Shown: positions 25,646 through 57,639 of the stretch, in pieces
How positions within the stretch are numbered: the first letter of the stretch is position 1
How the letters are laid out: the number at the start of each line of letters is the position of its first letter
Assembly (NCBI GenBank): GCA_002762985.1
Contig: PCXZ01000032.1
Span: 1 to 64,000 of the forward strand
DNA: 64,000 nt
DNA from: Candidatus Woesearchaeota archaeon CG10_big_fil_rev_8_21_14_0_10_44_13
GTDB taxonomy: Archaea; Nanobdellota; Nanobdellia; Woesearchaeales; UBA12501
Reading direction: 5' to 3'
Translations under genes and position numbers: made by a program
Notes under the pieces: generated by a model
What the model was told of the DNA's origin: nothing
Database searches by the model: none
The model's input: the letters and a program-made list of their open reading frames with translations, nothing else

Positions 25646-25662
25646 AAAAAGTTTAGAAGAAG

Positions 25663-28604: not shown

Positions 28605-28670
28605 GGACAAATTAATCCTATTAAGCACAATATTTATAAATAAAGTGTCCATTTAAATAATCTAATGTCC
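28605..28670 (+). promoter_or_regulatory. TATA box and possible operator of the 28665 regulator
   Basis: TATTTATAAA (28631-28640) lies 25-34 nt before the ATG, predicting a leaderless mRNA. Half-sites surround it: GGACA at 28605-28609, TGTCC at 28646-28650 and TGTCC at 28666-28670, the last overlapping the start codon. A repressor bound there would block initiation, which would fit autoregulation. Confidence 0.45.
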
Positions 28671-29252
28671 AATATTAAAGGCAAACCAACCCCCCTTACC
28701 CTAAGCAACAATGTCCTGGAAGCCCTTGCTGCTGTCTTGAAGCACGATTTTGTGCATATAAGGGAGATCTCAAGGATGACAGGCGTTTCCCCGACCACAG
28801 CAGGCAATGCGCTCAAAGAGCTTGAGGAAAACAACATACTCTCAAAAAAAACATTGGGCAAGAACTGCTTCTATTCCCTGAACAAGAACCAGAAATCTAG
28901 GAAACTCGTAGCCATTGTCGAGGATTATAATTTCCTGAAAGCATGCTCTGACAAGGCATTCAGCATTTTTTCAGAAGGCATTCTCAAGGATGTCAAGGAC
29001 ATAAAGAACTTCATCGATTTCATGACGGTCTCTGATGATGGCTCAGGGCCATCGATACTTCTTGTCACAAGCCTTGACAATGATACTGTAAAATCAAGGC
29101 TGTCGAAATCGAGCTCAGACAGGATAAAAAAGATCATGATCTTGACAAGGGAAAATTTCAGGAATAATCTTGAAGAGGACATGATAAAAAATCTGCTAAA
29201 GGACCATATCACGATATTCGGAACTGAAAGATTGATTGACACAATCTATTGA
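28665..29252 (+). CDS. Winged-helix transcriptional regulator
   Basis: 195 residues. An N-terminal winged helix (about 15-68: VHIREISRMTGVSPTTAGNA then NNILSKKTLGKNCFYSL) is followed by a mixed alpha/beta C-terminal domain with ILLVTSLDND and KKIMILTRENF, possibly a nucleotidyltransferase-like or ligand-binding fold. The wHTH resembles that of the 51781 gene (both have an SR..G...TA core, an NxIxxKK turn and a YSL strand), so the two are paralogues in one block. It likely controls nearby surface genes. No signal peptide. Confidence 0.82.
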   Translation: MSNIKGKPTPLTLSNNVLEALAAVLKHDFVHIREISRMTGVSPTTAGNALKELEENNILSKKTLGKNCFYSLNKNQKSRKLVAIVEDYNFLKACSDKAFSIFSEGILKDVKDIKNFIDFMTVSDDGSGPSILLVTSLDNDTVKSRLSKSSSDRIKKIMILTRENFRNNLEEDMIKNLLKDHITIFGTERLIDTIY

Positions 29253-29347
29253 AATGGTGTTTATTGGGTTATCTGCATCATGCATCATCCGCAAATCCAA
29301 ATAAGCATGAGTAATCCAATGGCATCGTGATCAGGATTGATACAAGG

Positions 29348-42641: not shown

Positions 42642-43676
42642 ATGAAAAAGAGAGGGCAGATAGGGGAGCAGTTTAACTGGATCTTCATCATCGTTGCAGG
42701 CGCATTGATCCTTGCGTTCTTCGTCATGGTCGTTAACAAGCAGAGGGAGCTCTCTGAGAAGAAGCTTTCAGCGGAGCTGCTCGCTGACCTTGATATGATA
42801 ATAACTGGCCAGGCAGTGAGCCCAGGCACTACGAGGCTGCTTGAGATGTCAAACCTTGAGCTGAGCTTCACGTGCGAGGATTATTCCATGGGGGGGGTGC
42901 CCAAAGGCACCGGAAACTCAATCCTGTTCACCCCTTCAAAGCTGAAAGGATCCAACATCATAGCATGGACATTGGACTGGAATATGCCTTACAGGGCCGC
43001 AAACTTCATCTACGTAACTGTGCCCGAGATAAAATATTTCCTTATTGACCCAGCAGAGAGCAATGGCCAGGACAGTTATGGCATCAAATCAGATTTCCCT
43101 GAGAAGGCCGATGTGACTGCGGTAAAGGAGACCCCTGAAGAGTTTGAGAGTTACCAGCGCGTAAGATTGGTCTATTTCATGAAGCCGCCGGGGGATGAGC
43201 AGTCATTAAGCCTGCCGTCTGATGCCCTGTCAGACTTCAACGATGACCAGGTTTCTGTCCTGTACATAGATGCAAAAAAGGCTGAAGATTTCAATGGCAA
43301 TGCTGATCTCTATTTTTACAAGAAGAAAGGCGATATGATGGTTAGGGAGGGCTGGATTCCGGGGTCCCTTGGGAAAGAGATAGTATATGGCGCCATATTC
43401 ACTGATGATTATGACCTTTACCTGTGCAATATAAAAAAAGCCCTCAGGAAACTTGAGGTTGTCACTGAAATCTATAAGGAGAGGGTCGGCTATCTTGCGA
43501 ATGGCCTGCCTGTAGGAGATCCATGCTCGCCTTATTATGGCCAAACGCCTTTGCAGGGTATAATAGACGAGATTAATGCTGATGTCATAAATGTGGGCAA
43601 CATATTCCAGTACATGAAACAGATCCAGAACATGAATGACCTTACGGTATTTGCTTCGTGCCCTGAGATATATTAA
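42642..43676 (+). CDS. Pilin-like anchored protein (KRGQ type)
   Basis: 344 residues. The N-terminus MKKRGQIGEQFNWIFIIVAG has RGQ at 4-6 before a hydrophobic helix (10-32), as in class III prepilins cut by an archaeal prepilin peptidase. The extracellular domain is mixed alpha/beta with few Cys, and I do not recognise a family. The KRGQ...FNWIF form is one I associate with Woesearchaeota/Pacearchaeota surface operons (recollection, unverified). It begins the run of small pilin-like genes; the next gene starts 30 bp later. Confidence 0.8.
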   Translation: MKKRGQIGEQFNWIFIIVAGALILAFFVMVVNKQRELSEKKLSAELLADLDMIITGQAVSPGTTRLLEMSNLELSFTCEDYSMGGVPKGTGNSILFTPSKLKGSNIIAWTLDWNMPYRAANFIYVTVPEIKYFLIDPAESNGQDSYGIKSDFPEKADVTAVKETPEEFESYQRVRLVYFMKPPGDEQSLSLPSDALSDFNDDQVSVLYIDAKKAEDFNGNADLYFYKKKGDMMVREGWIPGSLGKEIVYGAIFTDDYDLYLCNIKKALRKLEVVTEIYKERVGYLANGLPVGDPCSPYYGQTPLQGIIDEINADVINVGNIFQYMKQIQNMNDLTVFASCPEIY

Positions 43677-43706
43677 TTGATAAGATAATAAAAAACACGA
43701 CAAAAA

Positions 43707-44222
43707 ATGAAGCCGCTCAGGAAAAAATCACAGATGAAGACGTTCGAGTCTGTTGCAGTGCTCATAATATTCTTCATCCTCATAGGGTTGGGCCTAATAT
43801 TTTATACTGGTGTGCAGAAGACATCGATGAAACAGATCTACACAGAGAGGGTTGAGCAGGAAGCCGTGAAGATGGCCATGAGGGTCTCTTACCTGCCCGA
43901 GATACTGTGCAGCAGGAGAAAGATCGTCGAGGATGACTGTTTTGATGTCTATAAGCTCGATTCTGTCAGCAGCTGGATAAGCAGGGACGAGAAGATGTTC
44001 CTATATTACCAGGGGGATTTCAAAGAGAGCGTAATAACGATCAAGCAGATATTCCCTTACGGAAGGACGTTCACGATCTACAGCAACCAGCCTGAACAGG
44101 AAAAGATGAAGGATTATTACATAATCCCCACATATATCCCTGTCTCATTGAAGAATTCGTCCATGAAGAATGAGAACAGCATAGGTCTGCTTAATGTGAC
44201 TATGTTCGTGCCGAAGGTGTAA
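43707..44222 (+). CDS. Pilin-like anchored protein (KKSQ type)
   Basis: 171 residues. A short basic head with KKSQ (6-9) precedes a hydrophobic helix (about 14-34), then a small soluble domain with two Cys (ILCSRRK, DDCFDVY). No recognised family. The size and layout match a minor pilin. It is tightly spaced with its neighbours (30 and 49 bp) and probably in the same transcript. Confidence 0.78.
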   Translation: MKPLRKKSQMKTFESVAVLIIFFILIGLGLIFYTGVQKTSMKQIYTERVEQEAVKMAMRVSYLPEILCSRRKIVEDDCFDVYKLDSVSSWISRDEKMFLYYQGDFKESVITIKQIFPYGRTFTIYSNQPEQEKMKDYYIIPTYIPVSLKNSSMKNENSIGLLNVTMFVPKV

Positions 44223-44271
44223 AAAGCATGAATTATATCACTGTGAGATGTAACTGTGAGAAGCAATTAAA

Positions 44272-44862
44272 ATGAAGAAACGCATGTCTGTATCCAATTG
44301 CATGAAAAAGGCCAGGAAAGCGCAGATGGAGATGATAGGCATAGCCATAGTTGTCGTCCTTTTGGTCATAGGGATGGCATTTGTCTTCAAGGCCCTTATG
44401 AAGGCGCCGGAAAGGACCCATGAGAAATTCACCAAGGAACAGACTGCACAGAGCATAATCATAGCGATAAGCAATTCTGATGCCGGCTGCAAAGGGGTCG
44501 AGATGAAAGAGCTCATGCAGGACTGCGGAAATAATGTCAACAGCGTTGAGGATTTTGAGCTCGGCCAGTCAGGAAGCATACAATGCGGCAGCACAGACAG
44601 CTGCAGGTACCTCAATAGGTCATTAAAGGTCATATTTGAAGAGACCTTGAAGCTCCAGAGGCTGCCCTACAGGTTCATATTATATAAAACATCCATAGAC
44701 ACGCCGATATTGTATATAGAGGACGGCGGCTGCAACGAATATAACATAAAAGTGATGAGGAAATTTGACACTGGCAAGCCTGGCGAACAGCCTCTTCCGC
44801 TGGATTCAGGTGGCAATGTCTATGCGAGACTTGATATCTGCACATTGGCCGGCAGGATCTGA
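44272..44862 (+). CDS. Pilin-like anchored protein (RKAQ type)
   Basis: 196 residues. The basic head ends in RKAQ (15-18), followed by a hydrophobic helix (about 20-40). The soluble part has seven or so Cys and no recognisable domain. The polar leader is slightly longer than in classic archaellins but similar to others in this run. Last gene before a fresh promoter at 44913. Confidence 0.78.
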   Translation: MKKRMSVSNCMKKARKAQMEMIGIAIVVVLLVIGMAFVFKALMKAPERTHEKFTKEQTAQSIIIAISNSDAGCKGVEMKELMQDCGNNVNSVEDFELGQSGSIQCGSTDSCRYLNRSLKVIFEETLKLQRLPYRFILYKTSIDTPILYIEDGGCNEYNIKVMRKFDTGKPGEQPLPLDSGGNVYARLDICTLAGRI

Positions 44863-44912
44863 TACAGGTTATTTAATGGTTATTGGTGCCATAGGTTTGA
44901 AGTCACCGAAAC

Positions 44913-44924
44913 ATTTATAAATAA
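44913..44924 (+). promoter_or_regulatory. TATA box before the 45004 gene
   Basis: ATTTATAAATAA in a 141-bp gap, about 80 nt before the ATG at 45004. It predicts a leader of roughly 55-60 nt. GAGGTG at 44993-44998 is the ribosome-binding site. Confidence 0.55.
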
Positions 44925-45003
44925 AGTAACCTAGATTTACAAAATCATCAGTATTAAAGTCAGGTATTAAAAATCAAAAAAATACAAAAACCGAGGTGCT
45001 AAA

Positions 45004-45270
45004 ATGGCTTTCAAAAAAGGCGATCTTTCTATAAACATAGTGATCATTGCTGTCATAGCCTTGCTTGTGCTTGTCGTGCTCTCCTACATATTCGTAGGCA
45101 AGATCAGCCAGACAAGGAAAGGCATAGACAAATGCGAGAATTCAGGGGCAGTGTGCAAAGGATTCTGCGAGCTGGACGAGAGAAAGCTTGAGAAGGACTG
45201 CAATAATAACGGCAATACAGATTATAATGAAGGAGCTTTGATAGACGGCGTTTGCTGCCTGAAAGTCTGA
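45004..45270 (+). CDS. Short pilin-like protein ending in a CC cysteine module
   Basis: 88 residues. KKGD (4-7) is followed by a hydrophobic helix (9-30) and a small six-Cys head that ends DGVCCLKV. The start is fixed by GAGGTG. The small Cys head recurs, with different sequence but the same end, in the next genes. It is small enough to be a major repeating subunit if the helices pack like archaellins. Confidence 0.78.
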   Translation: MAFKKGDLSINIVIIAVIALLVLVVLSYIFVGKISQTRKGIDKCENSGAVCKGFCELDERKLEKDCNNNGNTDYNEGALIDGVCCLKV

Positions 45271-45343
45271 TTTATGGCAGATATTCCAAATTTTTTATTT
45301 TTATCATTGTTGGCCATCAATCCATATAGATCGAGGTGAATGA

Positions 45344-46129
45344 GTGAATTCTTTTAAGTATAAGGGCATAAAAAATAAGAAAGGCATGGATAAGTTGATG
45401 GAGGTAATCCTTGTTTCAGTGGCCCTGCTCGGGATGATATTCATCATCTGGATCATAACAAGGTCTGATGTGAACAAGGCAGCAGGCATTGTGCCGTGTT
45501 TCTCCCCTACTGAAGAAGCGCACTGCCTGGGGACTGTTGATGATTGCACGAAATCCGGCGGCAACCTGTTCAAGGTTGGCACATGCCCCACAAAAGATAA
45601 CCCTGTCTGCTGCATAGGCGGTTCTGGCAAACCTTCCAGCAGCCCTGCTGTCGCTACAACAAGTCCAGATCAGGCTGCGCCGACAACAGCAACAACGCCT
45701 TCAGAAGCCCCACAACTGAAGGGAACGATGCAATTCTTCTGCAAATGCAAGATTGAGAATGGCTACCTGGTCGGGCCGAACTGGCTCAGTTCAATAGTGA
45801 GTTTTGCCCTCAGTTTCAATAAGATGGACATGGCTGATATTAAGAAAGGCAATACTGACTTCAAGTCTAAAAAGGATGCAGAATATGAGATACAGGCCAG
45901 AGGCACAGATGATGTGAAATACTGCAGGATATCCGTTGTTGGCCAGAATTATGATGCAGAAGGCGCCTGCAGCAAGGATAACGGGCCCAGCGTCAAGGTT
46001 AAATTCGCAAAAGAAGGGGATTATGATGTAAACCTCTTCGGATATGACAAGAAGGGAGGTACAAGGGCAGCGTCTGCTGTTGTTGATATCAAGATTGAGA
46101 GTGCTACGGGCAGCGTGGCCGTATCATAA
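45344..46129 (+). CDS. Pilin-like protein with CC cysteine module and beta domain, GTG start
   Basis: 261 residues. The GTG at 45344 is chosen because GAGGTG (45334-45339) lies 4 nt upstream; the alternative ATG at 45386 lacks one and would remove the KKGM motif. KKGM (12-15) precedes a hydrophobic helix (about 19-39). A Cys module ending NPVCCIGG follows, then a Ser/Thr/Pro-rich linker (about 88-125) that would suit O-glycosylation, and a C-terminal PKD/Ig-like domain (RGTDDVKYCRISVVG to FAKEGDYDVNLFG). Confidence 0.78.
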   Translation: MNSFKYKGIKNKKGMDKLMEVILVSVALLGMIFIIWIITRSDVNKAAGIVPCFSPTEEAHCLGTVDDCTKSGGNLFKVGTCPTKDNPVCCIGGSGKPSSSPAVATTSPDQAAPTTATTPSEAPQLKGTMQFFCKCKIENGYLVGPNWLSSIVSFALSFNKMDMADIKKGNTDFKSKKDAEYEIQARGTDDVKYCRISVVGQNYDAEGACSKDNGPSVKVKFAKEGDYDVNLFGYDKKGGTRAASAVVDIKIESATGSVAVS

Positions 46130-46206
46130 GATAAGATGAAGATATAAAGAGATACCATGATATGATTGGATTATCATGTGATAAAAGATATATCAAAGGT
46201 GAAATC

Positions 46207-46503
46207 ATGGATGGAAAGAAAGGAATGGAGCTTTCATTGAACGTCATCATTGTGGCCATAGTGCTGTTCATAGTGATGATAATACTTGTGGCATTGTTTA
46301 CTGGAAAGATGGGCGGCATACGGAAGTCCCTCAATAAGACCGAATCCCAGTACAGCCAGGACAAATGCCAGATCCCCGGCACAGACAGGGTATGTGTAAT
46401 AACCCAAAGCTCATGCGAGAACAGAGGAGGTTTTGTATATGAAGCCCCGCAAGGAGGCAAATGGTCAGATTGCTATCTTGGCCAGATATGCTGCTCGCAG
46501 TAA
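46207..46503 (+). CDS. Short pilin-like protein ending in CC
   Basis: 98 residues from the ATG at 46207, which follows AAGGTGAAATC. An earlier in-frame Met (46162) would add 15 residues and lacks a ribosome-binding site. KKGM (4-7) precedes a hydrophobic helix (11-31) and a head with six Cys ending GQICCSQ. Same plan as the 45004 product. Confidence 0.77.
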   Translation: MDGKKGMELSLNVIIVAIVLFIVMIILVALFTGKMGGIRKSLNKTESQYSQDKCQIPGTDRVCVITQSSCENRGGFVYEAPQGGKWSDCYLGQICCSQ

Positions 46504-46534
46504 ATGCAGTAAGGGATCGGATGAGGATTAAGCC

Positions 46535-46828
46535 ATGATAAAGAATAAGGAAAATAAGGCGCAAGACAAGGGATTCAGGAACAAGAAAGGGCAGAGCCTG
46601 ACTTTTTTCCTGAAGGTCCTTGCAGTGGCAGCAATAGTTGTCATAATAATCTTCATAACAAGCGATAGCTTCAAGAGAATATTCAAGGCTGAGACTGGCT
46701 GCGAGTCTGACGCTGCATTCGAGAGGAAATGTTCTTTGACGTGCAGTGAAGGCTGGTCTGTAGATAACACAAAGACGTGCAAGAGCCAGGGTGACACAGA
46801 AGTGAAGTGCTGTTACAGGGCAAAATAG
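46535..46828 (+). CDS. Short pilin-like protein ending in CC
   Basis: 97 residues. A 16-residue polar leader precedes KKGQ (17-20), then a hydrophobic helix (24-42) and a head with six Cys ending VKCCYRAK. Same plan as the products of 45004 and 46207. No close sequence identity among the three heads apart from the Cys pattern. Confidence 0.76.
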   Translation: MIKNKENKAQDKGFRNKKGQSLTFFLKVLAVAAIVVIIIFITSDSFKRIFKAETGCESDAAFERKCSLTCSEGWSVDNTKTCKSQGDTEVKCCYRAK

Positions 46829-46898
46829 AAGATGATATGATAAGATCATTCCGATAGGTTGCTCCAGAAAATACAGAAACTGATATCCGAGATCTAAA

Positions 46899-47726
46899 AT
46901 GGGTTCTTTTAGAGATAAAATCCTGAAAAATGGCAAAAAGGCCATGGTGATGAAGTATATAGTCTTTCTTGTGATCGCCCTAATCAGCCTTATCCTCGTT
47001 TTCAGTTTCCTTTACAAGCTATACTCAAAGACAATTGGGTTCAGCGGTGAGAAGAACTGCAGGAATTCCATAGTGCTCCAGGAAACCCTTGCTGATAAGA
47101 TGCCTACAACCAAATACACGAAACCCTGGCCGGCGACATGCAAGACAAAAGACAAGGTCAGTGAAGCAAAGACCGCTGAAGATGCCAAGAAAGACCTGGC
47201 TGAGATGATGTGGTGGTGCTGGTGGATGATGGGGGAAGGGGCGATAAGGCCCTTTGACAAGGATTGGTTCTCCGGAGGGAGGAAATGCTTCGTATGCTAC
47301 ACTGCGCAGTTCCCCTATCTGCAAGGACAGGTCAGCAGGCAGGGTTTCACCTCTTATCTGCGGGAAAAGGGCAAAGAAGGCGCGACCTATTATGATTATC
47401 TGAAATACAGCGAAGATAAGGTGATTGAAAACCCCATGACTGATGATATAGACAAGAAAGGCATTTATGCGATAGTCTATACTTCCCCTGCTGATCCGAC
47501 TTTCAGCCCTATCCTCGGCTGCCTTGGCATTGGCGCTATCGGGGCTTTGGGAGGGGGCATTGTGGCTGTTCCCAGCTATATCGGCTGCCTGGGGGCATCT
47601 GCAGTCGTGCAGGTCGTAGAATCCATGAAAGAGGATCTTGTGTATGTTGCTGATGTGAGCAAAAACAGCGCAAGCTGCTACGGGAGCTGGTACACTGGAG
47701 GGGAGAGGGTCCAAACAACAGAATAA
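46899..47726 (+). CDS. Pilin-like protein with CWWMMGEG motif (copy 1)
   Basis: 275 residues. KKAM (13-16) precedes a hydrophobic helix (19-40). The soluble part has PWPATCKTKD, then MMWWCWWMMGEG, KCFVCYTAQFP, YYDYLKYSEDKVIE and a Gly/Ala-rich hydrophobic segment (about 204-235), which may be membrane-active or buried. The same order occurs in the 48046 gene, so these are paralogues from a tandem duplication. I recognise no named family. The abundant Trp/Met and CxxC-like KCFVC could bind metal or form disulfides. Confidence 0.8.
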   Translation: MGSFRDKILKNGKKAMVMKYIVFLVIALISLILVFSFLYKLYSKTIGFSGEKNCRNSIVLQETLADKMPTTKYTKPWPATCKTKDKVSEAKTAEDAKKDLAEMMWWCWWMMGEGAIRPFDKDWFSGGRKCFVCYTAQFPYLQGQVSRQGFTSYLREKGKEGATYYDYLKYSEDKVIENPMTDDIDKKGIYAIVYTSPADPTFSPILGCLGIGAIGALGGGIVAVPSYIGCLGASAVVQVVESMKEDLVYVADVSKNSASCYGSWYTGGERVQTTE

Positions 47727-47739
47727 TATGGGATAAAGC

Positions 47740-48039
47740 ATGAATAAAGCCATAAAAACAGGATTGTTAAAACCAAAACATTTAAAATCAAGGCTTCTTA
47801 AATACTTAAAAATGGTGAAAAGAGGCAAAAACCAGGTAATAAAGGCATATTCTGCATTCAAAACCTCATTCAAAAAAATGATGGATTCTTCTTCATTTTC
47901 CAGGTCATTTTCCCCGTTTAGGTTTCATTTAAACATAAGAGCCCAGATGGAGAATTCGACAGTCGCGATAATAATCGCGGTAGTGATGATATTCATTGTG
48001 CTGGCATTGCTGATATTGAGGCTAAATGAATTCGCCTGA
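47740..48039 (+). CDS. Small pilin-like protein with unusually long leader
   Basis: 99 residues. A 66-residue very basic Ser/Phe/Lys-rich region comes before RAQM (67-70) and a hydrophobic helix (74-93); almost nothing follows the helix. If processed like a prepilin, the product is essentially just the helix. It sits between the two CWWMMGEG genes (14 bp and 7 bp gaps), so it is probably co-expressed with them. An internal start near the motif is possible. Confidence 0.65.
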   Translation: MNKAIKTGLLKPKHLKSRLLKYLKMVKRGKNQVIKAYSAFKTSFKKMMDSSSFSRSFSPFRFHLNIRAQMENSTVAIIIAVVMIFIVLALLILRLNEFA

Positions 48040-48045
48040 GATACC

Positions 48046-48942
48046 ATGAAGAATAAAAAATCATTCATTGAGTGGGAAGTGATGAAGATAATACTCATAC
48101 TTTTCTCATTCATATTGCTTTTTGCCTTCCTGTACAGGTTTTACTCCAAGTCTACAGAATTTGCCGGCGAGGAAGCCTGCCATGATTCCCTCGTGCTTAC
48201 GCAGACTCTTGCTGAGAAAGTTGCAACTGGCCAATATCTGAAGCCGTGGCCAGCCACGTGCAAGACAAAAGAAGTAGTGAGCAAAGCCACTGAAATTGAC
48301 CAGGCCAAGAAAGAGCTTGCAGAGAGGATGTCGTGGTGCTGGTGGATGATGGGTGAAGGGGTTATAAAGCCTTTTGACAAGGATTTTTTTGCCGGAGGCA
48401 AAAAATGCTATGTATGTTATACTATGCAGTTCCCTTTCCTGAAAGAACCTGTCAGCAGGCAGGATTTCATGTATTACCTGCAGCAGCAGGGAAAGGAAAA
48501 AATGACTTATTATGATTATCTGAAATATGGCGAAGACAAGGTGATAGAGAGTCCTTTGACTGATCCGATAGACAGCAAGAAGATATATGCAGTGGTATAC
48601 ACATCGCCATCTGATTTCACATTCAATTTCATCCTGACATGCCTGAAGCCTTCTTTAGAGGTCGGTGCTGGCGCTGCAACAACCGGTGCAGTTGTTTGCG
48701 GCACTGCAGGGGCAGTTGTGGCGGGTCCGCCAGGCGCTGCAGCAGGAGTATTATTCTGCGGGCTTACAGGGGCTGTCTGGGGTTCAATAGGCACGTATGC
48801 TTTATGCGCTCCGGCAAGCATAGTCACGCAGATCATTGAAAAGACCAAAGAGGACCTAGTGTATGTGACTGATGTCAACAGGGGGCAGGCAGGCTGCGAA
48901 GGCACATGGTACAAAGGTGTAGGAGAGGTCCAGACAGCATAG
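48046..48942 (+). CDS. Pilin-like protein with CWWMMGEG motif (copy 2)
   Basis: 298 residues, paralogue of the 46899 product. Shared blocks in the same order are the hydrophobic helix (about 13-32), PWPATCKTKE, MSWCWWMMGEG, PFDKDFFAGGKKCYVCY, QFPFLKEPVSRQDF, YYDYLKYGEDKVIE and IYAVVYTSPSD. The C-terminal hydrophobic Gly/Ala-rich segment is longer and more repetitive (about 200-255) than in copy 1. The leader has KKSF in place of KKAM. Function unknown. Confidence 0.8.
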   Translation: MKNKKSFIEWEVMKIILILFSFILLFAFLYRFYSKSTEFAGEEACHDSLVLTQTLAEKVATGQYLKPWPATCKTKEVVSKATEIDQAKKELAERMSWCWWMMGEGVIKPFDKDFFAGGKKCYVCYTMQFPFLKEPVSRQDFMYYLQQQGKEKMTYYDYLKYGEDKVIESPLTDPIDSKKIYAVVYTSPSDFTFNFILTCLKPSLEVGAGAATTGAVVCGTAGAVVAGPPGAAAGVLFCGLTGAVWGSIGTYALCAPASIVTQIIEKTKEDLVYVTDVNRGQAGCEGTWYKGVGEVQTA

Positions 48943-48990
48943 ATTTATAATAAATGAGGTCATAGAGCAATATCATTAAAAGGTGAGATC

Positions 48991-49290
48991 ATGAAAACTC
49001 TTATCAAAAAAGATGCCAGGAAGACGGTTTCAGATAACCCCCAATTTATGAGTCCCTTTTTTGGGAGAAGCCTTGGTGATATAAGGGTGGCTCTAAAAAC
49101 AATGATGCTCTCAATCCCTCATGCAAAAAAAGGGGAGGAGATGGTTTCTCCGAGGCTGCTCGAATACATCATAGGTGCATTAGGGATGATTGCGATAATA
49201 GTCTTGATATATATGGTCTTCAAACCTGAAAATGCGGCCCAAGTGGCATCAAGCTGCGTCACGCAGTATATAGGGCCTAAATTCACTTAA
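48991..49290 (+). CDS. Small pilin-like protein with long leader
   Basis: 99 residues. AAGGTGAG upstream supports the ATG at 48991. A 45-residue polar leader is followed by KKGE (46-49) and a hydrophobic helix (58-77), with a short tail holding one Cys. It follows copy 2 of the CWWMMGEG gene just as the 47740 gene follows copy 1, so a two-gene unit appears to have been duplicated. Confidence 0.66.
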   Translation: MKTLIKKDARKTVSDNPQFMSPFFGRSLGDIRVALKTMMLSIPHAKKGEEMVSPRLLEYIIGALGMIAIIVLIYMVFKPENAAQVASSCVTQYIGPKFT

Positions 49291-49366
49291 CATGCGGGCA
49301 TATATCAATAGCCCATATCCCAAAAAATTTATCGAAAAAAGGCATTCAGACATTCAAGGTGAGCAC

Positions 49367-50188
49367 ATGAAAAAAAAATCGATGGCGATCTCAACAACAT
49401 TCTACATGATAATAATGCTTGCTCTGCTGCTTGTGCTCACATTCATCTATTTCGGCGGCACAGGCTTCTTCCAGAAGATATACAAACTGACAGACAAGCT
49501 GGGCCTGACGAAGCTTGCAAAGGATGTCGAGGAAAAAGAGAAAAACATAACTGAAAGCAGGGAAAAATTAAGCCCCGAGGAACAGAGGGCTGAAGAGCAG
49601 ATAAAATCCGTCGTCGATAAGATCGTCCAGGGCATACAATCCTGCCTTGCCGGACCAAACTGCGTATGCAGGATAGACGGCCAGCAGATACCTGAAGGAT
49701 ATGTCATAAGGTTCCTGAATGCCCCTGCTGAAAAAACGGTCTATGTAAGCGTATTCAGGTTCAAGGAGAGGGGCTGGTACCAGGCTAATTATGACGAGAA
49801 TTACCAGGGCCAGACAGGAGTGCATTTTGTCTATGGCACAAATTACAATCTGGATAATACCCAATCATGCATTGTCATAGACCTTGAAGAGCACTATCTT
49901 GACGGGGATGATGATGTGGACCATATACAGTTAAGGGATCCTGAAGCAGGCATGATACAGCTTTTCTGGGAAGGAGACAGGTACAGGGCGACTGAATCAG
50001 TCAGTCCTGGCGTGGTATATAATAGTGAGAGGGATTATGATGTGTATGGCGCTGGCAGCTACAGCCTCAACTCGATATACAAGGCAAAGGATGGAAGATT
50101 CTGCTTTTTCGCAGAAAGATTCGTCGATGAAGACACTGATCTTGTAGACCGCATAGTCTGCGGCAAGAGCGAAGAGCAGCCCAGTTAG
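49367..50188 (+). CDS. Pilin-like anchored protein with coiled-coil stalk
   Basis: 273 residues from the ATG at 49367 (AAGGTGAG upstream); an earlier Met at 49292 has no such signal. KKSM (3-6) precedes a hydrophobic helix (10-30). A charged helical region follows (about 45-95, KDVEEKEKNITESREKLSPE), probably a stalk, then a beta-rich head with three or four Cys (CLAGPNCVCRIDGQQIP, FCFFAERF). The domain is not one I recognise. Confidence 0.76.
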   Translation: MKKKSMAISTTFYMIIMLALLLVLTFIYFGGTGFFQKIYKLTDKLGLTKLAKDVEEKEKNITESREKLSPEEQRAEEQIKSVVDKIVQGIQSCLAGPNCVCRIDGQQIPEGYVIRFLNAPAEKTVYVSVFRFKERGWYQANYDENYQGQTGVHFVYGTNYNLDNTQSCIVIDLEEHYLDGDDDVDHIQLRDPEAGMIQLFWEGDRYRATESVSPGVVYNSERDYDVYGAGSYSLNSIYKAKDGRFCFFAERFVDEDTDLVDRIVCGKSEEQPS

Positions 50189-50199
50189 GAGGTGGAATA

Positions 50200-50610
50200 A
50201 TGACAGAAGCATATAGAAAAAATAAAGGAAGATTCAAAGAGAATAAGAAGGCCCAAAGTTCGACTACTTTCCTGAAAGTCCTGCTCGAGGCAGTTGTAGT
50301 CCTTGTTGTAATAGGGGTATTTTTGTATGGGATGTACCTTAAATCAGCAAAGAGAAGCATTAATCCATTATTAGACAAAATAGGCACAGAAATCGAGAAA
50401 GTGGATCCTCTCGCACAGAGCGAAGATGATTATGACCAGGATGGGGTGCCTAATAATGCAGATAAATGCTGCAGCTGCGACAGGATAGGCAGGACAGGAG
50501 TCATAAATGACCCGGCGCTGGATCCCACAAAAACAAGGATGGGTTGCGCAGAAGGACAGCAGCCAAGCAGCTGCCCGACATCGCCTTGCCAGACTGTTTT
50601 GGTCTCATGA
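50200..50610 (+). CDS. Short pilin-like protein with Ca-motif and Cys-rich head
   Basis: 136 residues. GGAGGTGG, 8 nt before the ATG, supports the start. KKAQ (16-19) precedes a hydrophobic helix (25-45). The head has a thrombospondin-type-3-like Ca motif (DDYDQDGVPNNADKC) and seven Cys. This links it to the Ca-binding repeats of the giant proteins. Confidence 0.77.
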   Translation: MTEAYRKNKGRFKENKKAQSSTTFLKVLLEAVVVLVVIGVFLYGMYLKSAKRSINPLLDKIGTEIEKVDPLAQSEDDYDQDGVPNNADKCCSCDRIGRTGVINDPALDPTKTRMGCAEGQQPSSCPTSPCQTVLVS

Positions 50611-50676
50611 CCGCAGGTTTGTGAGTATATAAGACAGTATGAGACAGGATATTAAATAAGATACCAAAAAAGAAAA

Positions 50677-51612
50677 ATGAAGAAAAAAGCGCTTATAGGC
50701 TTCGTAGTCGTGCTTGTGCTGACGCTTACCTTGGCAGGGCTCACTATGTACAAGGTTGCAGAGATATTCGGCCTGCATCAGACCCAGAAGGCCATGGATT
50801 CCTTCTATAGATTTGTATATAAGGTGAATGACAGCTCTGTCAGGCCTGTAGGGACAAAGGAATCAACTGCATTATACGTCGATGAGAAGAGCACCATACT
50901 GGGTTTCAGCAAGAATTCCAAAGAGATTTTCATCCCAACGGGCATAAACCATCACAGCCCCCGGCCCCCCGAATGCATTGCGGGAAATGCGTGCATATGC
51001 CTCTGCAGGGATTATGACTGGAGGATAGACTTCAGTAAATATGAGTATTATTTCGGCATGGAATTCCTGCCGATAAGGTGCAGGGAAAGCTTCATCTGCG
51101 AAAATTTTCAAGATTTTGATTTCCCCCAGAAGATGACAAAAGAGGATTTCGGGATGGATATAGAGATGGAAGGGGGATTCATAATCGCAAGGAACTTCAT
51201 GCTCGGAGACCAGAAGATAGAGGCAAGATTGACAGGAATCTACATAACAAATGAAGCGCCCGGCCTTGTGAGCGTTTCATACAATGTGGAAGGGGTCTCA
51301 AAGGAAACCCTGCAGAGGCAGAACGAGAGGGATGAGACCGGAAAAATGATGTGGGAGGCGAATACTGCTTTCACGAACAAGCAATGGGATACAGCCATAC
51401 AGAAATATGATGAGATCATAAGCAAAGGTTATCTTAGCTATCTTTCAGAAGGCTCCAAGGAGCAGGTATACCTATTCAGGGCAATGTGCTATTACAACAA
51501 GCATGACAGGGAGAATACATTAGAGGCAATGGATGAAGCCTTGAACCACACAGAAGATGACACATTAAAGAAGATGATAAGGGAGAAAATGGCTGAAGCA
51601 GAGACATGGTAA
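50677..51612 (+). CDS. Membrane-anchored protein with C-terminal TPR-like repeats
   Basis: 311 residues. One N-terminal hydrophobic helix (about 5-24) is followed by a domain with paired Cys (CIAGNACICLC, RCRESFICENF). The C-terminal 90 residues are helical, with TPR-like spacing (MWEANTAFTNKQWDTAIQKY and YLFRAMCYYNKHDRENTLEA). TPRs usually hold protein partners, so this may be an assembly or scaffold component. It is the last gene before the 51781 regulator, which lies after a 168-bp AT-rich gap. Confidence 0.76.
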   Translation: MKKKALIGFVVVLVLTLTLAGLTMYKVAEIFGLHQTQKAMDSFYRFVYKVNDSSVRPVGTKESTALYVDEKSTILGFSKNSKEIFIPTGINHHSPRPPECIAGNACICLCRDYDWRIDFSKYEYYFGMEFLPIRCRESFICENFQDFDFPQKMTKEDFGMDIEMEGGFIIARNFMLGDQKIEARLTGIYITNEAPGLVSVSYNVEGVSKETLQRQNERDETGKMMWEANTAFTNKQWDTAIQKYDEIISKGYLSYLSEGSKEQVYLFRAMCYYNKHDRENTLEAMDEALNHTEDDTLKKMIREKMAEAETW

Positions 51613-51692
51613 GATATATCAGGGGTTAGTTCTTTGTCAAGAGTTAGTTGAGGCATAGGGTTGGATAAGTTGGGCATTGATTATGTTTTTTT

Positions 51693-51782
51693 TATAGAAC
51701 AATTGTATTTTTAATAACATAACTTACATTTTATATATAAAATAGTAAACTATATATAGAACAAATGTTTTATATATAAAAT
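51693..51782 (+). promoter_or_regulatory. Repeat-rich promoter/operator of the 51781 regulator
   Basis: Two kinds of site alternate. TATAGAACAA(T/A)TGT is at 51693 and 51755, 62 bp apart. TTTTATATATAAAAT is at 51729-51743 and again at 51768-51782, 39 bp apart, the second copy including the first two bases of the ATG. The first copy is part of a 16-bp perfect palindrome and could be the TATA box. The second would place a bound protein over the start codon. This looks like autorepression. Confidence 0.55.
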
Positions 51783-52194
51783 GCTTGAAAAGTATGCCTT
51801 GTGGAAGGTCATTGAAGTTCTTGTAAAAGGGGAAGAGGAATATTCTGTAAGGCAGATGTCAAGGACTGCAGGCATAGGCGCAGGGACTGCAAAAGCGTGC
51901 CTTGATTACATGCATGAAAACGGGATTATAAAGAAGAAAGTGATAGGCAATATCTACCAATATTCCCTGGATCTTGCGAATCCTGCTGCAAGGCAGATAA
52001 AGAATGCGTATTTCGCAAAGGAATTGCTCCAGAAGGCCGGCCCTAAGACATGGATCTGCTCCAATGAGAAAGAGGTTGTCGTTGTCACGACAATGGAATC
52101 GTTGAAGATTGAGGGGATAAGAATCATAAAAACAAATGAGCATGATTTCGAAAGCCTGAAAAAAAGCTATCTCGACATAATCACGATAAGATGA
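51781..52194 (+). CDS. Winged-helix transcriptional regulator
   Basis: 137 residues with an N-terminal winged helix (about 5-62: YSVRQMSRTAGIGAGTAKAC, NGIIKKKVIGNIYQYSL) and a short alpha/beta C-terminal domain (EVVVVTTMESL). The wHTH parallels that of the 28665 product, but this protein is shorter. The ATG is flush with an AT-rich repeat, so the leader is very short. It probably represses itself and the following wall-hydrolase genes. Confidence 0.8.
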   Translation: MLEKYALWKVIEVLVKGEEEYSVRQMSRTAGIGAGTAKACLDYMHENGIIKKKVIGNIYQYSLDLANPAARQIKNAYFAKELLQKAGPKTWICSNEKEVVVVTTMESLKIEGIRIIKTNEHDFESLKKSYLDIITIR

Positions 52195-52277
52195 GAGGAC
52201 ATTAACACTGGCTTGAGCAACAGGCACGATTAAATGCGCAAAAGTAAATATACCAAAGAGCGTAAAAAAGAGCATAA

Positions 52278-53513
52278 ATGAAAATAAAAAAGAGGCATGG
52301 AAAGAGAACAGTTACTTCTAGTCTTGAGACTGGCACAAGTAGAAGTGGGGCATATAATATGCATTCCTCCAGGATAAGATATAAAAAAGCGATGGAATCC
52401 ACAACCATGGTCTTTTATTATGCGGCCTGCCTTTTTTTCGCTTTTTTCGTCATATTCACATATATGAGGATAGCTTACACTGGCGCAAAAAGCACTAAAT
52501 TCAATATGGAATTCTTTGTGAATGATGTCGGATTGATGACTGATTCATTATCTGCTGTCCCTGGCGACGTTGACTACGATTATAAAAAAAGCCCGTCCAA
52601 GTTCATATTCGATTTCAGGGAGAGTGCCCTCTACGTCTATACTCCTATCGAGACCGCTAATGTAAAACTAAACAAAGAGGGCATAAGCGACACATGGTCT
52701 TCATATAACCTGTTGTTCGAGGCAGGGAAGCCGTTTGTCAAAAAATTCACTTTCCCGCCGATAATCTCGTTCAGGAAAAAGGGCAGCATGCTTGAAATAT
52801 CCTCTTCAGGTGTGTTCAATGACAGGGAATTCTGCCCCATCATGGATACCTATTCGGACTTGAAACAGGCCAATATAACTATAGAACCCGGCCATTATAT
52901 GTCAGAGCCTGGCTATGTGAGCGGAAACCAGAAAGAGTTCCAGCTCACAGAAGCGATAGCAGAAAGCATAGCTGTGCTGTGCAGGAGCCATTCGATGAAC
53001 TGCAAGATACTCAGACAGGGCACTATGGCTGAAAAGGTTGCAGAGATGAACACAGAACCCAAGCCGAATATGGCCATAAGCCTGCATATAGGGGATTACC
53101 AGAATCCTGATGACAACCCATTCAGGGCAATGTATATCTTCAGCTCTTCAAAAAGCGAGAAGCTCGCGTGCCTCATATCGAACAAGTTCAGGGAGGATTA
53201 CATCGTCCTGGAGAGCGAGAAGATAGTCCCATTGCTGAAATATTCCCAGGATTATGCCTCGATCTTATCTGAAAATGCGCCTTCAGTTGTCCTTGAGATC
53301 GGCAACATCAGGAATATTATGGGCTTCGACCAGGACGAGGACATAAACAAGATTGCTGCGATAATAGTGAGCGGCATCGAGGAATACTACAAGAAAGAGG
53401 CAGTCAGCGCTGAAGGGGAAGAGGAATTCGAGGAGCTGAATAAGGAGATGAAAGGCGCTAAGGAAATGCCTGCAGATGGCGACAAGAGCAAGGTGAAGGT
53501 CATTACAAGGTAG
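52278..53513 (+). CDS. Anchored Amidase_3-like protein, catalytic residues kept
   Basis: 411 residues. KKAM (37-40) precedes a hydrophobic helix (about 45-63), the prepilin-like layout of the block. The region 199-370 has the order of an N-acetylmuramoyl-L-alanine amidase of the Amidase_3 type: IEPGHY (H206), QKEFQLTEA (E220), SLHIGD (H270) and VVLEIGN (E340), matching the zinc ligands and catalytic Glu, although the wider sequence is divergent. It could cut the amide between MurNAc and L-Ala, or a similar bond. The end is acidic/lysine-rich. Divergence makes real activity uncertain. Confidence 0.7.
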   Translation: MKIKKRHGKRTVTSSLETGTSRSGAYNMHSSRIRYKKAMESTTMVFYYAACLFFAFFVIFTYMRIAYTGAKSTKFNMEFFVNDVGLMTDSLSAVPGDVDYDYKKSPSKFIFDFRESALYVYTPIETANVKLNKEGISDTWSSYNLLFEAGKPFVKKFTFPPIISFRKKGSMLEISSSGVFNDREFCPIMDTYSDLKQANITIEPGHYMSEPGYVSGNQKEFQLTEAIAESIAVLCRSHSMNCKILRQGTMAEKVAEMNTEPKPNMAISLHIGDYQNPDDNPFRAMYIFSSSKSEKLACLISNKFREDYIVLESEKIVPLLKYSQDYASILSENAPSVVLEIGNIRNIMGFDQDEDINKIAAIIVSGIEEYYKKEAVSAEGEEEFEELNKEMKGAKEMPADGDKSKVKVITR

Positions 53514-53570
53514 AATCCAAGAAGGATTATCAAAAGCAATTATCCAAAAAAATACAAAACATGAGAGAGG

Positions 53571-54407
53571 ATGCAGCAAAAGATGCGACAAAAAAACATG
53601 AGATTTGTGAAAATCTGCATATTCATGGTAATTGCGGCCCTGCCTTCGCTAGCCAATGCAGCGATATATGGGGATGAAGCGTTTGTAGATGGCTTCGTGA
53701 CTGACCAGAGGCTTGTTGATTCTGTTGATAGTTTCCTGGAAACGACAAACACGACTCTTGCGCTTGCTGTGCTAAACAACACGGAGGATATTGCTGCTGA
53801 TGCTGAATTTTACTATAACCTGAGCAAGGCTGACATCACAATAGTGTATGATTTCGGCGATAATAAGATAGCGATAGCGAAGCCGAGGGAGAGGGAGGTA
53901 TTGAGCGACCAGAAGATAAACCAGCTGCTTGACGGCAGGCAGAGCCAAAAGACATTCATTGTCGACGCAGGTGATGCGAACTTATACCTCCTGAATCTTG
54001 TTGAAGACATCAAGACAGAGCTGAGATCCGGCGAGAAGATATATGGTGTGTGTTCCATAATAAAAGACGGCTACTGCAATGAGAGCTGTTATGACGACCT
54101 TGACTGCGATTGCGGCAACGGCATATGCGAGTACCATGAGAATTACATAACCTGCCAGAAAGACTGCAAGAAGACGTCTGAGTATGGCTGTGCGATATTG
54201 AGCGACAATTACTGCGATAAGAACTGCCCATTGACGGACATAGACTGCAGTTTCGGGAGCCTCAGTGAGAAGACATTCGATATCGCAAAAAAGAAAAGGA
54301 CGACTGCCGTAGTGCTGCAGGCTGTTATCGGGGCCCTGTTGTTCATGCTTGTCGTCATACTGATATATGTGCTTGAAAAAAATAAAGGATTCAAAAAACC
54401 GCAATGA
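53571..54407 (+). CDS. Signal peptide/TM protein with Cys-rich juxtamembrane region
   Basis: 278 residues. Signal peptide (about 10-31), an alpha/beta domain resembling in outline TPM-like extracellular domains (about 40-150), then a Cys-rich part with CYDDLDCDCGNGIC and CPLTDIDC repeats, one transmembrane helix (about 247-268) and a short basic tail. The Cx(n)DxDC repeats resemble those in the 57624 product, so these two may be partners. No enzyme motif seen. Confidence 0.78.
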   Translation: MQQKMRQKNMRFVKICIFMVIAALPSLANAAIYGDEAFVDGFVTDQRLVDSVDSFLETTNTTLALAVLNNTEDIAADAEFYYNLSKADITIVYDFGDNKIAIAKPREREVLSDQKINQLLDGRQSQKTFIVDAGDANLYLLNLVEDIKTELRSGEKIYGVCSIIKDGYCNESCYDDLDCDCGNGICEYHENYITCQKDCKKTSEYGCAILSDNYCDKNCPLTDIDCSFGSLSEKTFDIAKKKRTTAVVLQAVIGALLFMLVVILIYVLEKNKGFKKPQ

Positions 54408-54414
54408 TGGATGG

Positions 54415-54921
54415 ATGAAATATATGAGAAGTGTATGGAAATCAAAAAGAGGGGAGGGAGAGGAAAGGACGCAAGAGGCACCAAACTACTCGATATATTT
54501 CCTGATAGTCGCGATCATAGTCCCATTATTCGCTATCTTCCTTGTCATTGCGACATCCTCATACAGTGTTGAAACTACAAGCATACTCGGAAACCTTGAA
54601 AGCGCCGTGGTAGGGTTCAGGATATTGAATTCGCCAGAATGCTTCGTCTATCAGGATGAGGCTACAAAAAGGACATACCCCCACACGATAGAACTGAAGA
54701 AATGCACGCCTGAAAGGCTTGAAGCCTGCATGGGCAATATGTCGGGAGTATGCTTCAAGTCCCAGATAAAAGTCGGAGGGGAGGTAATGAAAGAGCTGCA
54801 GAGCAGGAATTACAGGAGGCCATCTGAGATAAAGGTGAGCGTTTGGCCGATAAAGGCCAAGGATGAGGGCGAAGAGAGGCAGGGATTCATGATCATAAGC
54901 ACGAGCAAGCAATGCGGTTGA
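54415..54921 (+). CDS. Anchored pilin-like protein
   Basis: 168 residues from the ATG at 54415; a GTG at 54367 would overlap the preceding gene by 41 nt. A basic head (with KRGE at 11-14) leads to a hydrophobic helix (about 25-48), then a small domain with four Cys. It is not recognised. The stop overlaps the next gene's start by 10 nt, so translation is probably coupled. Confidence 0.72.
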   Translation: MKYMRSVWKSKRGEGEERTQEAPNYSIYFLIVAIIVPLFAIFLVIATSSYSVETTSILGNLESAVVGFRILNSPECFVYQDEATKRTYPHTIELKKCTPERLEACMGNMSGVCFKSQIKVGGEVMKELQSRNYRRPSEIKVSVWPIKAKDEGEERQGFMIISTSKQCG

Positions 54922-55514
54922 GCCCCCACTGGAATTTGGCTGAAAAGATGGCTGAAAAGAATTTGATTGAAAAGCTGAAGATGGACATAAGGAAATCAAA
55001 AAAAGGAGTAGTGCACACATGGTTTGATTATGTATTCGCGATAGTCGGAGGCATAGTAATATTCGTGATAATATTCTTTGTGACTACATCGGGCACAGCA
55101 AGGGTCGAGAATGAGATAAAGGCCCAGGAATTCGATATAAGGTCTGATGAGACGCTTGTGTTTTACCTCTCAACTTGCCTCAGCAAAGGCCAGATCAATG
55201 ATCTCTTGTTCAATAATGAGAGGTTTAAGGTAGCAGAACAGCTTGCAGGCTCAAAAACGACATTTGCCGACCTGATAATTGCCATAGGCGAGAATGATGA
55301 TGAGGATTACAAGGAGATATTGAGGGCCCAGACAGAATACCTGCTTAATACGACTCTTGGGAATGAGAAATGGAAGCTTGATATAAGATATCCTGGTGGG
55401 GAGGAACTTTCGTTCGGGGGATTGAAGGGCGAGACAAGGGTTTTTGAGCTAAGGCTGCCTTCAACAGGCTATCAGATGATAAATGTCAAATTGACCGCAA
55501 AAAAGGAGAAATGA
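54912..55514 (+). CDS. Anchored pilin-like protein (KKGV type)
   Basis: 200 residues (an internal Met at 54948 is an alternative start). SKKGV (29-33) precedes a hydrophobic helix (about 38-58) and a helical/beta soluble domain of unknown type (DETLVFYLSTCLSKGQINDL). It overlaps the previous gene by 10 nt and precedes the wall-hydrolase fusion gene by 17 bp. Confidence 0.74.
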   Translation: MRLSPHWNLAEKMAEKNLIEKLKMDIRKSKKGVVHTWFDYVFAIVGGIVIFVIIFFVTTSGTARVENEIKAQEFDIRSDETLVFYLSTCLSKGQINDLLFNNERFKVAEQLAGSKTTFADLIIAIGENDDEDYKEILRAQTEYLLNTTLGNEKWKLDIRYPGGEELSFGGLKGETRVFELRLPSTGYQMINVKLTAKKEK

Positions 55515-55530
55515 AAGAGGATCCAGATAA

Positions 55531-57639
55531 ATGGCCCAGATAAGATATTTCAGGAGCATTAGGAAAAACTGCATGAGGAAGGACAGGAGAGGGGCAATGC
55601 TGCTCTATCTCGCAACAATAGGTCTCCTTATAGCATCATTCACGTTCCTTACGCTGAAAGTCATGGAGAAGCCTGCAAAATGGGAGCCCAAGTATGTCGG
55701 TGAGCACCAGCTTGCATTGCTTAAGACTGCAATAAATGCAGATAAATTCCTACTGTTCATAGACCAGGCCTCGAAGCCGACTGCGATGCAGTCCATCTAT
55801 AACCTGGCTCAGAAAGGGGGTTTCCCTGCCGGCTCAGAATGCGGGCAGTACATTGGCTACCAGAAATGGAGGACTTTCTCGAAGGACAGTAATGAGATGA
55901 AAAACTGCATCCCTGATGAAAGCACGATAAAATATGATATATCGTATGCCTTTAATAACGAGCTCTATAAATACCTCAATGTTTACTGGGGCTACCAGAA
56001 ACAGAATGCCATGGCTGTTAATGCCGGATCAGGGGATCTGGCAGGAAAAACGGTCATATTGGACCCCGGCCATGGAGAAGGGTATAGCGGTCCATCAGGC
56101 GCAAGCGGCGAGCAGGAAGCCACCCATGCGATCTCTGCGAAACTCAAGATGCTGCTTGAGCAGAAAGGGGCCATAGTCTATGAAACACCTTCAGCTTATG
56201 GGATGACTGAGAGGGCAAATTTTGCGAATGAGAAGAAGGGAGATATATTGGTTTCTATACATTTTAATGGTGTTTCTGATGTGAATACTGCCGGCCTTGA
56301 GGCTTTCTATGGCGCTGAGAACAGCGGGACAGCAGACGGCAGCCCTGAAAAAGATAAGGTTCTTTGCGAGAATATCATCCCAAAAGTGAAGGATGTAATC
56401 AGCAGCGAGCTTAGGGGAGGAGGCATAAAGCCTGACACTGGCACTGACGTCGGCTCGCTGTCAAACCTGAGGAAGACAAACATGCCCGCATGCCTCATAG
56501 AGATGGAATTCATATCCGCGAAAAAAAGCATAAAATTCAACAACAAGGAATATGGCAATTACAAGGATCTTTTCCGGAGCGAAGATTACCAGAATGCTGC
56601 GGCAAATGCACTGAAAGAAGGCATAATAAATTATTTCAGTGCTGTCGGAAACCTGCAGCCAGAGCCAAAAAAACCTGAACCCTCCTTGGTGGCAAGCAGC
56701 GGGATGGAACAGACAACGACATCTGCGATTCAGGGCCTTATGAAAACAGAGAATGATGAGTATATCACGGGGACGCCTGTCATGGTGCCTTATGCTGCCC
56801 CTCAGCAGGCCATCAATCTGCCATTGGGCGTTTTAGGCAAGATGCCTCCTGACAACTATGAGGTGAATCTTGAGCAGAAGGACAAGCTGAAGATAATGGG
56901 GATTGCCAAAGACAAGGCAGAATTCGACATAGTATTGGGTGAGATAAAGAGAAAAAGCGTAGCAAAGATGATTTCAGAGGGTGTTGAAGGCGGGATAAGG
57001 AATCTCGTTGATATAGGGGGATGCAGCATAGATTCGCCTCAGACAGACAGCCAGTCTATAGGCAATGCCAATGTCGGGAGGCTTGAGAATGGTGTGAAGG
57101 TTCCAGATGAAGGGACATATTATCTTATCGATCCTCCTGCAAGGGGCAGAGGAAGCAATTATGCCACTAATGAGCTTTACATAGGCCTGCAGAAGACAGG
57201 ATGCGTTCTTATGAAGAATTACAATGTAAAGCTGATATTCAGGGATATGAGCAAACAAGGAGGCGGAAAGCTTGGGAAACATCTATCGCATACAAGCGGA
57301 AGGGATGTTGACATGGGTTTTGTATGTATTAAGGATGAAAAAAGGTTCCCCTGCTACAGGAATGTCGTCCAAGGCGGCGGAGTAGTGCCTGAATTTGACC
57401 CTGCGGGGAACTGGCTGCTCATGAAGACTGTGTTTGATACAGTTGAAGTCGATCATGTCTTCCTTAACAGATATATAATAAAATTAATCATGGACTGGGC
57501 AGAGGCGAATGAGCCTGACAAAATTGCTGTTGAAAAGGTAAAAAAAATACTTGAGAGGGATGAGCTTGCAAATCACGTAACTCATTATCATCTCAGGATA
57601 AAATGCCCTGAAGGAGACGCACAATGCAGGATAGACTAA
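55531..57639 (+). CDS. Amidase_3 plus MepA (peptidase M74) fusion, murein-hydrolase-like
   Basis: 702 residues. RRGA (19-22) precedes a hydrophobic helix (24-44), then a linker and an Amidase_3 domain (about 172-370): ILDPGHGEGYSG (H181), E196, SIHFNG (H244) and CLIEMEF (E324). A Pro/Ser-rich linker leads to a C-terminal domain (about 510-700) with the M74 MepA signature: GKHLSHTSGRDVDM (H584, H587, D594) and THYHLRIKCP (H685, H687). In bacteria the first cleaves MurNAc-L-Ala and the second cross-linking peptide bonds. I see no pseudomurein-specific features. It overlaps the next gene by 16 nt. Confidence 0.86.
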   Translation: MAQIRYFRSIRKNCMRKDRRGAMLLYLATIGLLIASFTFLTLKVMEKPAKWEPKYVGEHQLALLKTAINADKFLLFIDQASKPTAMQSIYNLAQKGGFPAGSECGQYIGYQKWRTFSKDSNEMKNCIPDESTIKYDISYAFNNELYKYLNVYWGYQKQNAMAVNAGSGDLAGKTVILDPGHGEGYSGPSGASGEQEATHAISAKLKMLLEQKGAIVYETPSAYGMTERANFANEKKGDILVSIHFNGVSDVNTAGLEAFYGAENSGTADGSPEKDKVLCENIIPKVKDVISSELRGGGIKPDTGTDVGSLSNLRKTNMPACLIEMEFISAKKSIKFNNKEYGNYKDLFRSEDYQNAAANALKEGIINYFSAVGNLQPEPKKPEPSLVASSGMEQTTTSAIQGLMKTENDEYITGTPVMVPYAAPQQAINLPLGVLGKMPPDNYEVNLEQKDKLKIMGIAKDKAEFDIVLGEIKRKSVAKMISEGVEGGIRNLVDIGGCSIDSPQTDSQSIGNANVGRLENGVKVPDEGTYYLIDPPARGRGSNYATNELYIGLQKTGCVLMKNYNVKLIFRDMSKQGGGKLGKHLSHTSGRDVDMGFVCIKDEKRFPCYRNVVQGGGVVPEFDPAGNWLLMKTVFDTVEVDHVFLNRYIIKLIMDWAEANEPDKIAVEKVKKILERDELANHVTHYHLRIKCPEGDAQCRID

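Follow-up and report, generated by a model that had tools for sequence, protein, structure and literature searches.

An order-wide cluster of prepilin-like genes in Woesearchaeales with a modular slot for cell-wall hydrolases

Archaeal type IV pili, the archaellum, and other type IV filament machines are the described systems most similar to the gene cluster analyzed here, which occupies positions 42,642 to 57,639 of a 64,000-nucleotide stretch of contig PCXZ01000032.1 from Candidatus Woesearchaeota archaeon CG10_big_fil_rev_8_21_14_0_10_44_13 (the whole stretch is referred to below as the window, and genes are named by their start positions in it). The source genome is archaeal, 1.5 Mb in size, and 98% complete. 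Like these machines, the cluster encodes subunits with class III signals in a genome that contains an A24 peptidase, and the long N-terminal helix and beta-rich head predicted for its lead subunit, 42642, recall type IV filament subunits. Unlike them, it comprises about 17 different subunits, contains no ATPase or platform gene, has no solved pilin among the fold matches listed, and includes a fixed wall-hydrolase subunit. The bindosome assembly system (Bas) of Sulfolobus is comparable in that it uses class III-signal proteins other than ordinary pilus fibers. Unlike in Bas, no sugar-binding proteins were seen in the cluster, and the match of 43707 to BasB is very weak (E = 0.043, far below the cut-off), such that homology is not established.

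A second line of earlier work concerns bacterial-type wall hydrolases in archaea, including Nanoarchaeota and Woesearchaeota. Castelle et al. 2021 (PMC8204110) described large murein-transglycosylase proteins (fam00969) in Pacearchaeota and Woesearchaeota, some of which were proposed to live on bacteria. Those proteins share with the present system the lineages, an extracellular protein with a wall-cutting domain, and a proposed bacterial target; the description in that paper concerns the domain, whereas the slot described here is one position in a conserved prepilin-like cluster and accommodates many unrelated hydrolases. Vigneron et al. 2022 (PMC9723730) proposed “vampiristic” Woesearchaeota, and a 2025 study (PMC12352652) reported that archaeal peptidoglycan hydrolases, which are prominent in Nanoarchaeota, kill bacteria. 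Text searches returned no mention of pili or secretion in the former and none of pilins or class III signals in the latter. A partial search of the literature likewise returned no description tying wall hydrolases to a prepilin-like gene cluster; within this range of sources, an order-wide cluster with class III subunits and a modular hydrolase slot appears to be new.

The cluster consists of about 17 open reading frames on the + strand; in each product, a basic N-terminus of short length and a [KR][KR][GAS]-type motif stand before a single hydrophobic helix. Most of the subunits lack a Pfam family. A preliminary description, made from the sequence alone, had reported about 15 consecutive proteins of this kind. 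The motif and helix are present where it placed them (in about 17 proteins), but the run is not consecutive, being broken by a helix-turn-helix regulator (51781) and a Sec-signal protein (53571). Its observation that the heads are nearly all dissimilar agrees with our all-against-all comparison, in which 46899 and 48046 form the sole related pair. Nor is the cluster confined to this genome: orthologs of 42642 are found in 122 of the 145 genomes of the order Woesearchaeales (105 of 123 genera) and in 289 of 371 genomes of the phylum. In a search of contigs, nearly all relatives of the lead subunit came from sequences labeled as Woesearchaeota or as Nanoarchaeota/Nanoarchaeia, among them the complete genome of AR20.

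The prepilin-like cluster is a syntenic locus of Woesearchaeales. We read about 60 neighborhoods and scored collinearity on loci with at least five of eight core families, and the core families were collinear in all 42 loci scored. The order (all genes with spans written in the form start..end are on the + strand) begins with the lead subunit 42642 (42642..43676; 344 amino acids [aa]; KRG/Q site), 43707 (43707..44222; KKS/Q), and 44272 (44272..44862; RKA/QMEM). This trio is directly adjacent in 43 of 48 loci, and the 43707 ortholog lies immediately 3' of the 42642 ortholog in 44 of the 44 loci that have both. Small Cys-rich and 46899/48046-type proteins follow, and then 50677 (50677..51612; weaker signal KKKA, TPR-like C-terminus with weak TPR matches), 52278 (52278..53513; KKAM; Amidase_3 fold, E = 2.4e-10), 54367 (54367..54921; atypical signal KRGE), 54912 (54912..55514; KKGV), and the terminal subunit 55531 (55531..57639; RRGA). 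Orthologs of 50677 stand immediately 5' of those of 52278 in 38 of 42 loci, those of 54367 immediately 3' of 52278 in 38 of 40, and those of 54912 immediately 3' of 54367 in 37 of 37. In some genomes, such as G108, G144, and G028, the 5' part of the locus is retained but the rest is reduced. Since single core orthologs keep their order in 42 of 42 loci, one assembly of many distinct parts fits better than alternative fibers, and of the two possibilities raised in the preliminary description, a composite tip or several alternative fibers, we infer that the composite structure is the better supported.

The surroundings of the locus are also partly conserved. Most relatives encode a surface protein of about 1000–1200 aa 5' of the 42642 ortholog; its same-place homolog in the window is 39189 (39189..42599; 1136 aa), which has a Sec-type signal, Ig-like and TSP3 repeats (Pfam Big_13 and TSP3_bac), a C-terminal helix, and a charged tail. 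Many relatives have a replication-protein-like gene 3' of the cluster, as at 63429 in the window. An apparent fusion of a giant protein with 42642 in genome G012 was rejected as an artefact arising from a run of N.

The subunits carry the class III signal motif of type IV filament machines, as the preliminary description had proposed. Using a strict rule (the last K/R before the helix, with K/R preceding and G/A/S following), the motif is found in 9 of 16 proteins of the window cluster versus 4 of 61 first helices of polytopic proteins (p = 3e-5). Among cluster orthologs in relatives, it is found in 315 of 486 versus the same 4 of 61 (p = 2e-19, a value that is indicative only because orthologs are not independent). 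When a loose pattern is applied to proteins with an N-terminal helix, the cluster scores 13 of 15 and the rest of the genome 95 of 216 (Fisher p = 0.002); this background is high because the genome has many further class III-like proteins. By family, the strict motif is frequent (75–87%) in 42642, 44272, 54912, and 55531, and moderately frequent in 52278 (65%) and 50677 (49%). In the 44272 family, a Q right after the site and an E at +3 are invariant across 37 sequences, a pattern near that of canonical archaeal prepilins.

Positions 29327-32731 of the window, together with contigs C6, C10, C11, C25, C26, and C27, hold a second, scattered prepilin-like surface set with N-termini of the [KR][GAS]Q[IL]xxFIxxG type and long ectodomains. 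The product at 29327, counted earlier as one more protein of this kind, shares the motif; its family, however, is not that of the cluster and is scattered over the genome.

The last core gene fuses a conserved, prepilin-like N-terminal region (about 160–200 residues, with conserved Cys) to a variable domain. When the terminal proteins of 30 relatives were scanned singly, a wall-active Pfam domain was recognized in 21 of them (in 20 above the cut-off set by Pfam), starting mostly at residue 175–242. Specifically, the slot is filled by M23, by SLT, by Amidase_2, by NlpC/P60 with YkuD and deacetylase, or by M15. In the window, 55531 has an Amidase_3 domain (E = 2.8e-25) with a Peptidase_M74 domain alongside. 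Alignment of this amidase with the Cwp6 autolysin shows that the zinc ligands and catalytic Glu of an N-acetylmuramoyl-L-alanine amidase are present. At the threshold used, a search of this genome yielded no further homologs of the Amidase_3 and M74 domains of the window. A genome-contig scan with the 55531 protein gave no match.

The wall enzymes of the cluster, which the preliminary description had not noted, are the two amidases of 52278 and 55531, the M74 endopeptidase of 55531, and the product of a transglycosylase-like gene. The last of these, 59007 (59007..63317), encodes a Sec-exported protein of 1436 aa in which domain scans recognize a metallophosphoesterase, two NAGPA domains, an SLT-like domain (profile E = 2e-7 in a proteome search), and a C-terminal domain. 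This C-terminal domain is the one that follows the hydrolase in 55531-type proteins of relatives; since 59007 carries it together with the SLT-like domain, the parts of the terminal protein seem to be distributed over genes in this genome. One other SLT-like protein is encoded in the genome. Sequence searches for a solved structure returned no match for the SLT-like, M74, and 52278 amidase segments. Because archaea are not known to make peptidoglycan, the substrate of the terminal hydrolases would most likely be bacterial peptidoglycan.

Structure predictions were obtained for two subunits of the trio. The AlphaFold model of 42642 (pLDDT 93.9) has an N-terminal helix of 56 residues, a head rich in beta structure, and a helical portion at the C-terminus, and this predicted arrangement of long helix and head resembles the general layout of type IV pilins. 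The model of 44272 (88.5) has an N-terminal helix and an alpha/beta head. Fold searches with these models returned no meaningful match for 42642, with Foldseek reaching E = 0.08 at best and VIA Z = 6.3 over 67 residues, and, for 44272, a Z of 7.8 to a sensor domain, which is within the chance range.

The search of the genome for a prepilin peptidase that had been suggested earlier finds one A24 enzyme (PF01478; C13:2354-3220), whereas a PF06847 peptidase is absent from the genome. The A24 peptidase is present in 133 of the 145 genomes of the order. The cluster encodes no polytopic protein, and genes for an assembly ATPase and a GspF/TadC-type platform occur only elsewhere in the genome, where three classical pilus loci (contigs C21, C22, and C23) combine an ATPase and two platform proteins with classical pilins. 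In a survey of draft genomes of the order, 29 genomes have no PF00482 match or a marginal one; 24 of these 29 retain the lead subunit, a proportion equal to that among platform-bearing genomes (98 of 116; p = 0.78). All 18 genomes that are at least 90% complete and lack a clear classical platform retain A24.

A PF00437 match is present in 23 of 23 genomes tested, most of which have a CpaF-like ATPase of about 760 aa. In this genome, the corresponding CpaF/GspE-type secretion ATPase is G000:C24:34116-36401 (T2SSE, 53.9 bits; CpaF, E = 1e-25; FlaI, E = 4e-14), and its neighbor, at C24:31659-33959, is an 8-helix protein of about 766 aa with no Pfam family (the pair is also numbered L036:11659-16401). 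The 8-helix protein occurs in 140 of 145 genomes of the order, mostly at 50–60% identity, and in 362 of 371 genomes of the phylum, and the two genes lie near each other in most of the genomes for which both positions were obtained. In genome G413, search coordinates (C164:16305-22878) place an 8-helix homolog (C164:16305-18500:+) 3.3 kb 5' of the lead subunit, with both on one strand. The idea of a motor-free cluster, first inferred from the PF00482-negative genomes, was dropped after this near-universal ATPase and its neighbor were found. An assignment of the 8-helix protein as a T2SSF platform was plausible by eye but is unsupported by Pfam, by hhalign, and by comparison of hidden Markov models (HMMs) with shuffles. 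Because its platform homology is not established, the pair is only a candidate for a motor; it could be a divergent one that serves secretion or pili in the phylum. Three small 5-helix proteins are encoded near the ATPase (C24:38710-40537).

We propose, with a probability of about 0.52, that the cluster encodes one composite Woesearchaeales surface apparatus of many prepilin-like subunits, which presents wall hydrolases. Under this proposal, Sec would insert the subunits N-in, and the A24 peptidase of the genome would cleave them after [KR][GAS], as both the enrichment of the motif and the existence of such an enzyme suggest. The processed helices could then pack as a short multi-subunit spike or a membrane-based complex, consistent with the one-of-each synteny; the 42642-43707-44272 trio may form the base, and the other heads may be parts of the same structure. 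More tentatively, a type IV pilus-like ATPase from another locus might drive assembly. The CpaF-like ATPase and its 8-helix neighbor would be the most plausible choice, with the three classical pilus motors as the alternative. Exposed on the surface at contact sites, the swappable hydrolase of the terminal subunit would cut peptidoglycan, most likely that of bacterial partners, prey, or competitors, as domain identity and the intact catalytic residues in this genome suggest.

Several results weigh against this composite apparatus. Neither the window cluster nor the core clusters of relatives that were read showed an ATPase or platform, and the 8-helix protein has no Pfam match to PF00482, with an hhalign probability of 6.7% and a score within shuffled controls. 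Co-occurrence of peptidase, candidate motor, and cluster is non-discriminating because all three are nearly universal. In addition, no pilin is listed among the fold-search matches of 42642 or 44272, the strict motif is rare in the 54367 family (15%), and 9 of the 30 terminal proteins scanned have no recognized hydrolase. The catalytic-type residues of the 52278 Amidase_3 domain are kept in the window but altered in several relatives, which suggests a structural or binding role of the family there. The missing motor, the weak or atypical sites in the 50677 and 54367 families, and the retention of the cluster in 24 of 29 genomes without a clear classical T2SSF platform would all suit ordinary uncleaved N-in/C-out anchors of a static envelope or S-layer-associated complex, with the K/R residues reflecting the positive-inside rule. 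We consider such anchors unlikely, given that KR-KR-[GAS] is about nine times commoner in the cluster than ahead of polytopic first helices, that Q+1 is invariant in the 44272 family, and that every one of the 18 genomes with at least 90% completeness but no clear classical platform keeps A24. A genuine, extended type IV pilus, or a set of alternative pili, assembled by a classical motor on C21-C23 would make use of the three ATPase and platform loci of the genome. The equal frequency of the cluster with and without a clear platform makes this improbable, as does the single copy of each core subunit, which speaks against homopolymeric or alternative fibers; the survey of draft genomes already points toward separate loss of the cluster and the classical platform.

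The hydrolases might also serve in scavenging peptidoglycan debris or in killing competitors at a distance, rather than in contact with a living partner. Combinations of deacetylase, NAGPA, and peptidase domains suit the turnover of wall fragments, and archaeal peptidoglycan hydrolases can be weapons (PMC12352652); the hydrolases of this locus are, however, tethered to a conserved multi-subunit surface assembly and not simply secreted, and we regard this use as somewhat unlikely. The composite apparatus could, at its most far-reaching, be a phylum-wide nanomachine, that is, a prepilin-based spike with its own divergent motor (the CpaF-like ATPase and an unrecognizable or unrelated platform) and exchangeable tips that breach bacterial walls. 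We hold this extension to be doubtful; if it is true, bacteria, and not archaea alone, would be the usual partners or prey of Woesearchaeales. The partners of Woesearchaeota are poorly known, and a conserved surface locus with a swappable bacterial-wall hydrolase provides a concrete link to bacteria, suggesting a surface device that these tiny archaea use on them. The locus also draws attention to a mostly unannotated protein set that the majority of genomes in a diverse order of archaea encode, and it would broaden prepilin-like systems to include composite assemblies whose head types number a dozen or more.

Between the trio and 50677, the cluster encodes further prepilin-like proteins. Three are small and Cys-rich: 45004 (45004..45270; KKGD), for which comparable small proteins stand at the equivalent position in relatives, 46162 (46162..46503; KKGM), which according to the gene caller probably starts at 46207, and 46535 (46535..46828; KKGQ). 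Larger products are 45344 (45344..46129; KKGM), with a weak PKD-like region, and the paralogs 46899 (46899..47726; KKAM) and 48046 (48046..48942; KKSF), whose heads match at E = 2e-88 and whose family is present in most loci. Downstream of these are 49292 (49292..50188; KKSM; start probably 49367 by the gene caller) and 50200 (50200..50610; KKAQ), which has a short tail that is rich in Cys and weakly resembles TSP3. The small proteins 47740 (47740..48039; RAQM) and 48991 (48991..49290; KKGE) are less certain genes, possibly mis-called, because neither has homologs in the neighborhoods of relatives that were read and the gene caller did not pick 47740 and reported 48991 only in a shortened form (49102).

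Two Sec-signal Cys-rich membrane proteins related to each other accompany the core genes: 53571 (53571..54407) lies among them, as in a few relatives, and 57624 (57624..58976) follows 55531. The winged-helix regulator that interrupts the surface-protein region (51781..52194) is a paralog of the one that flanks it (28665-29252), and a homolog adjoins the 52278 ortholog in the distant relative L123. Farther upstream, at 21815-28095 of the window, two large secreted proteins are encoded, the second with three MopE-type metal-binding motifs.

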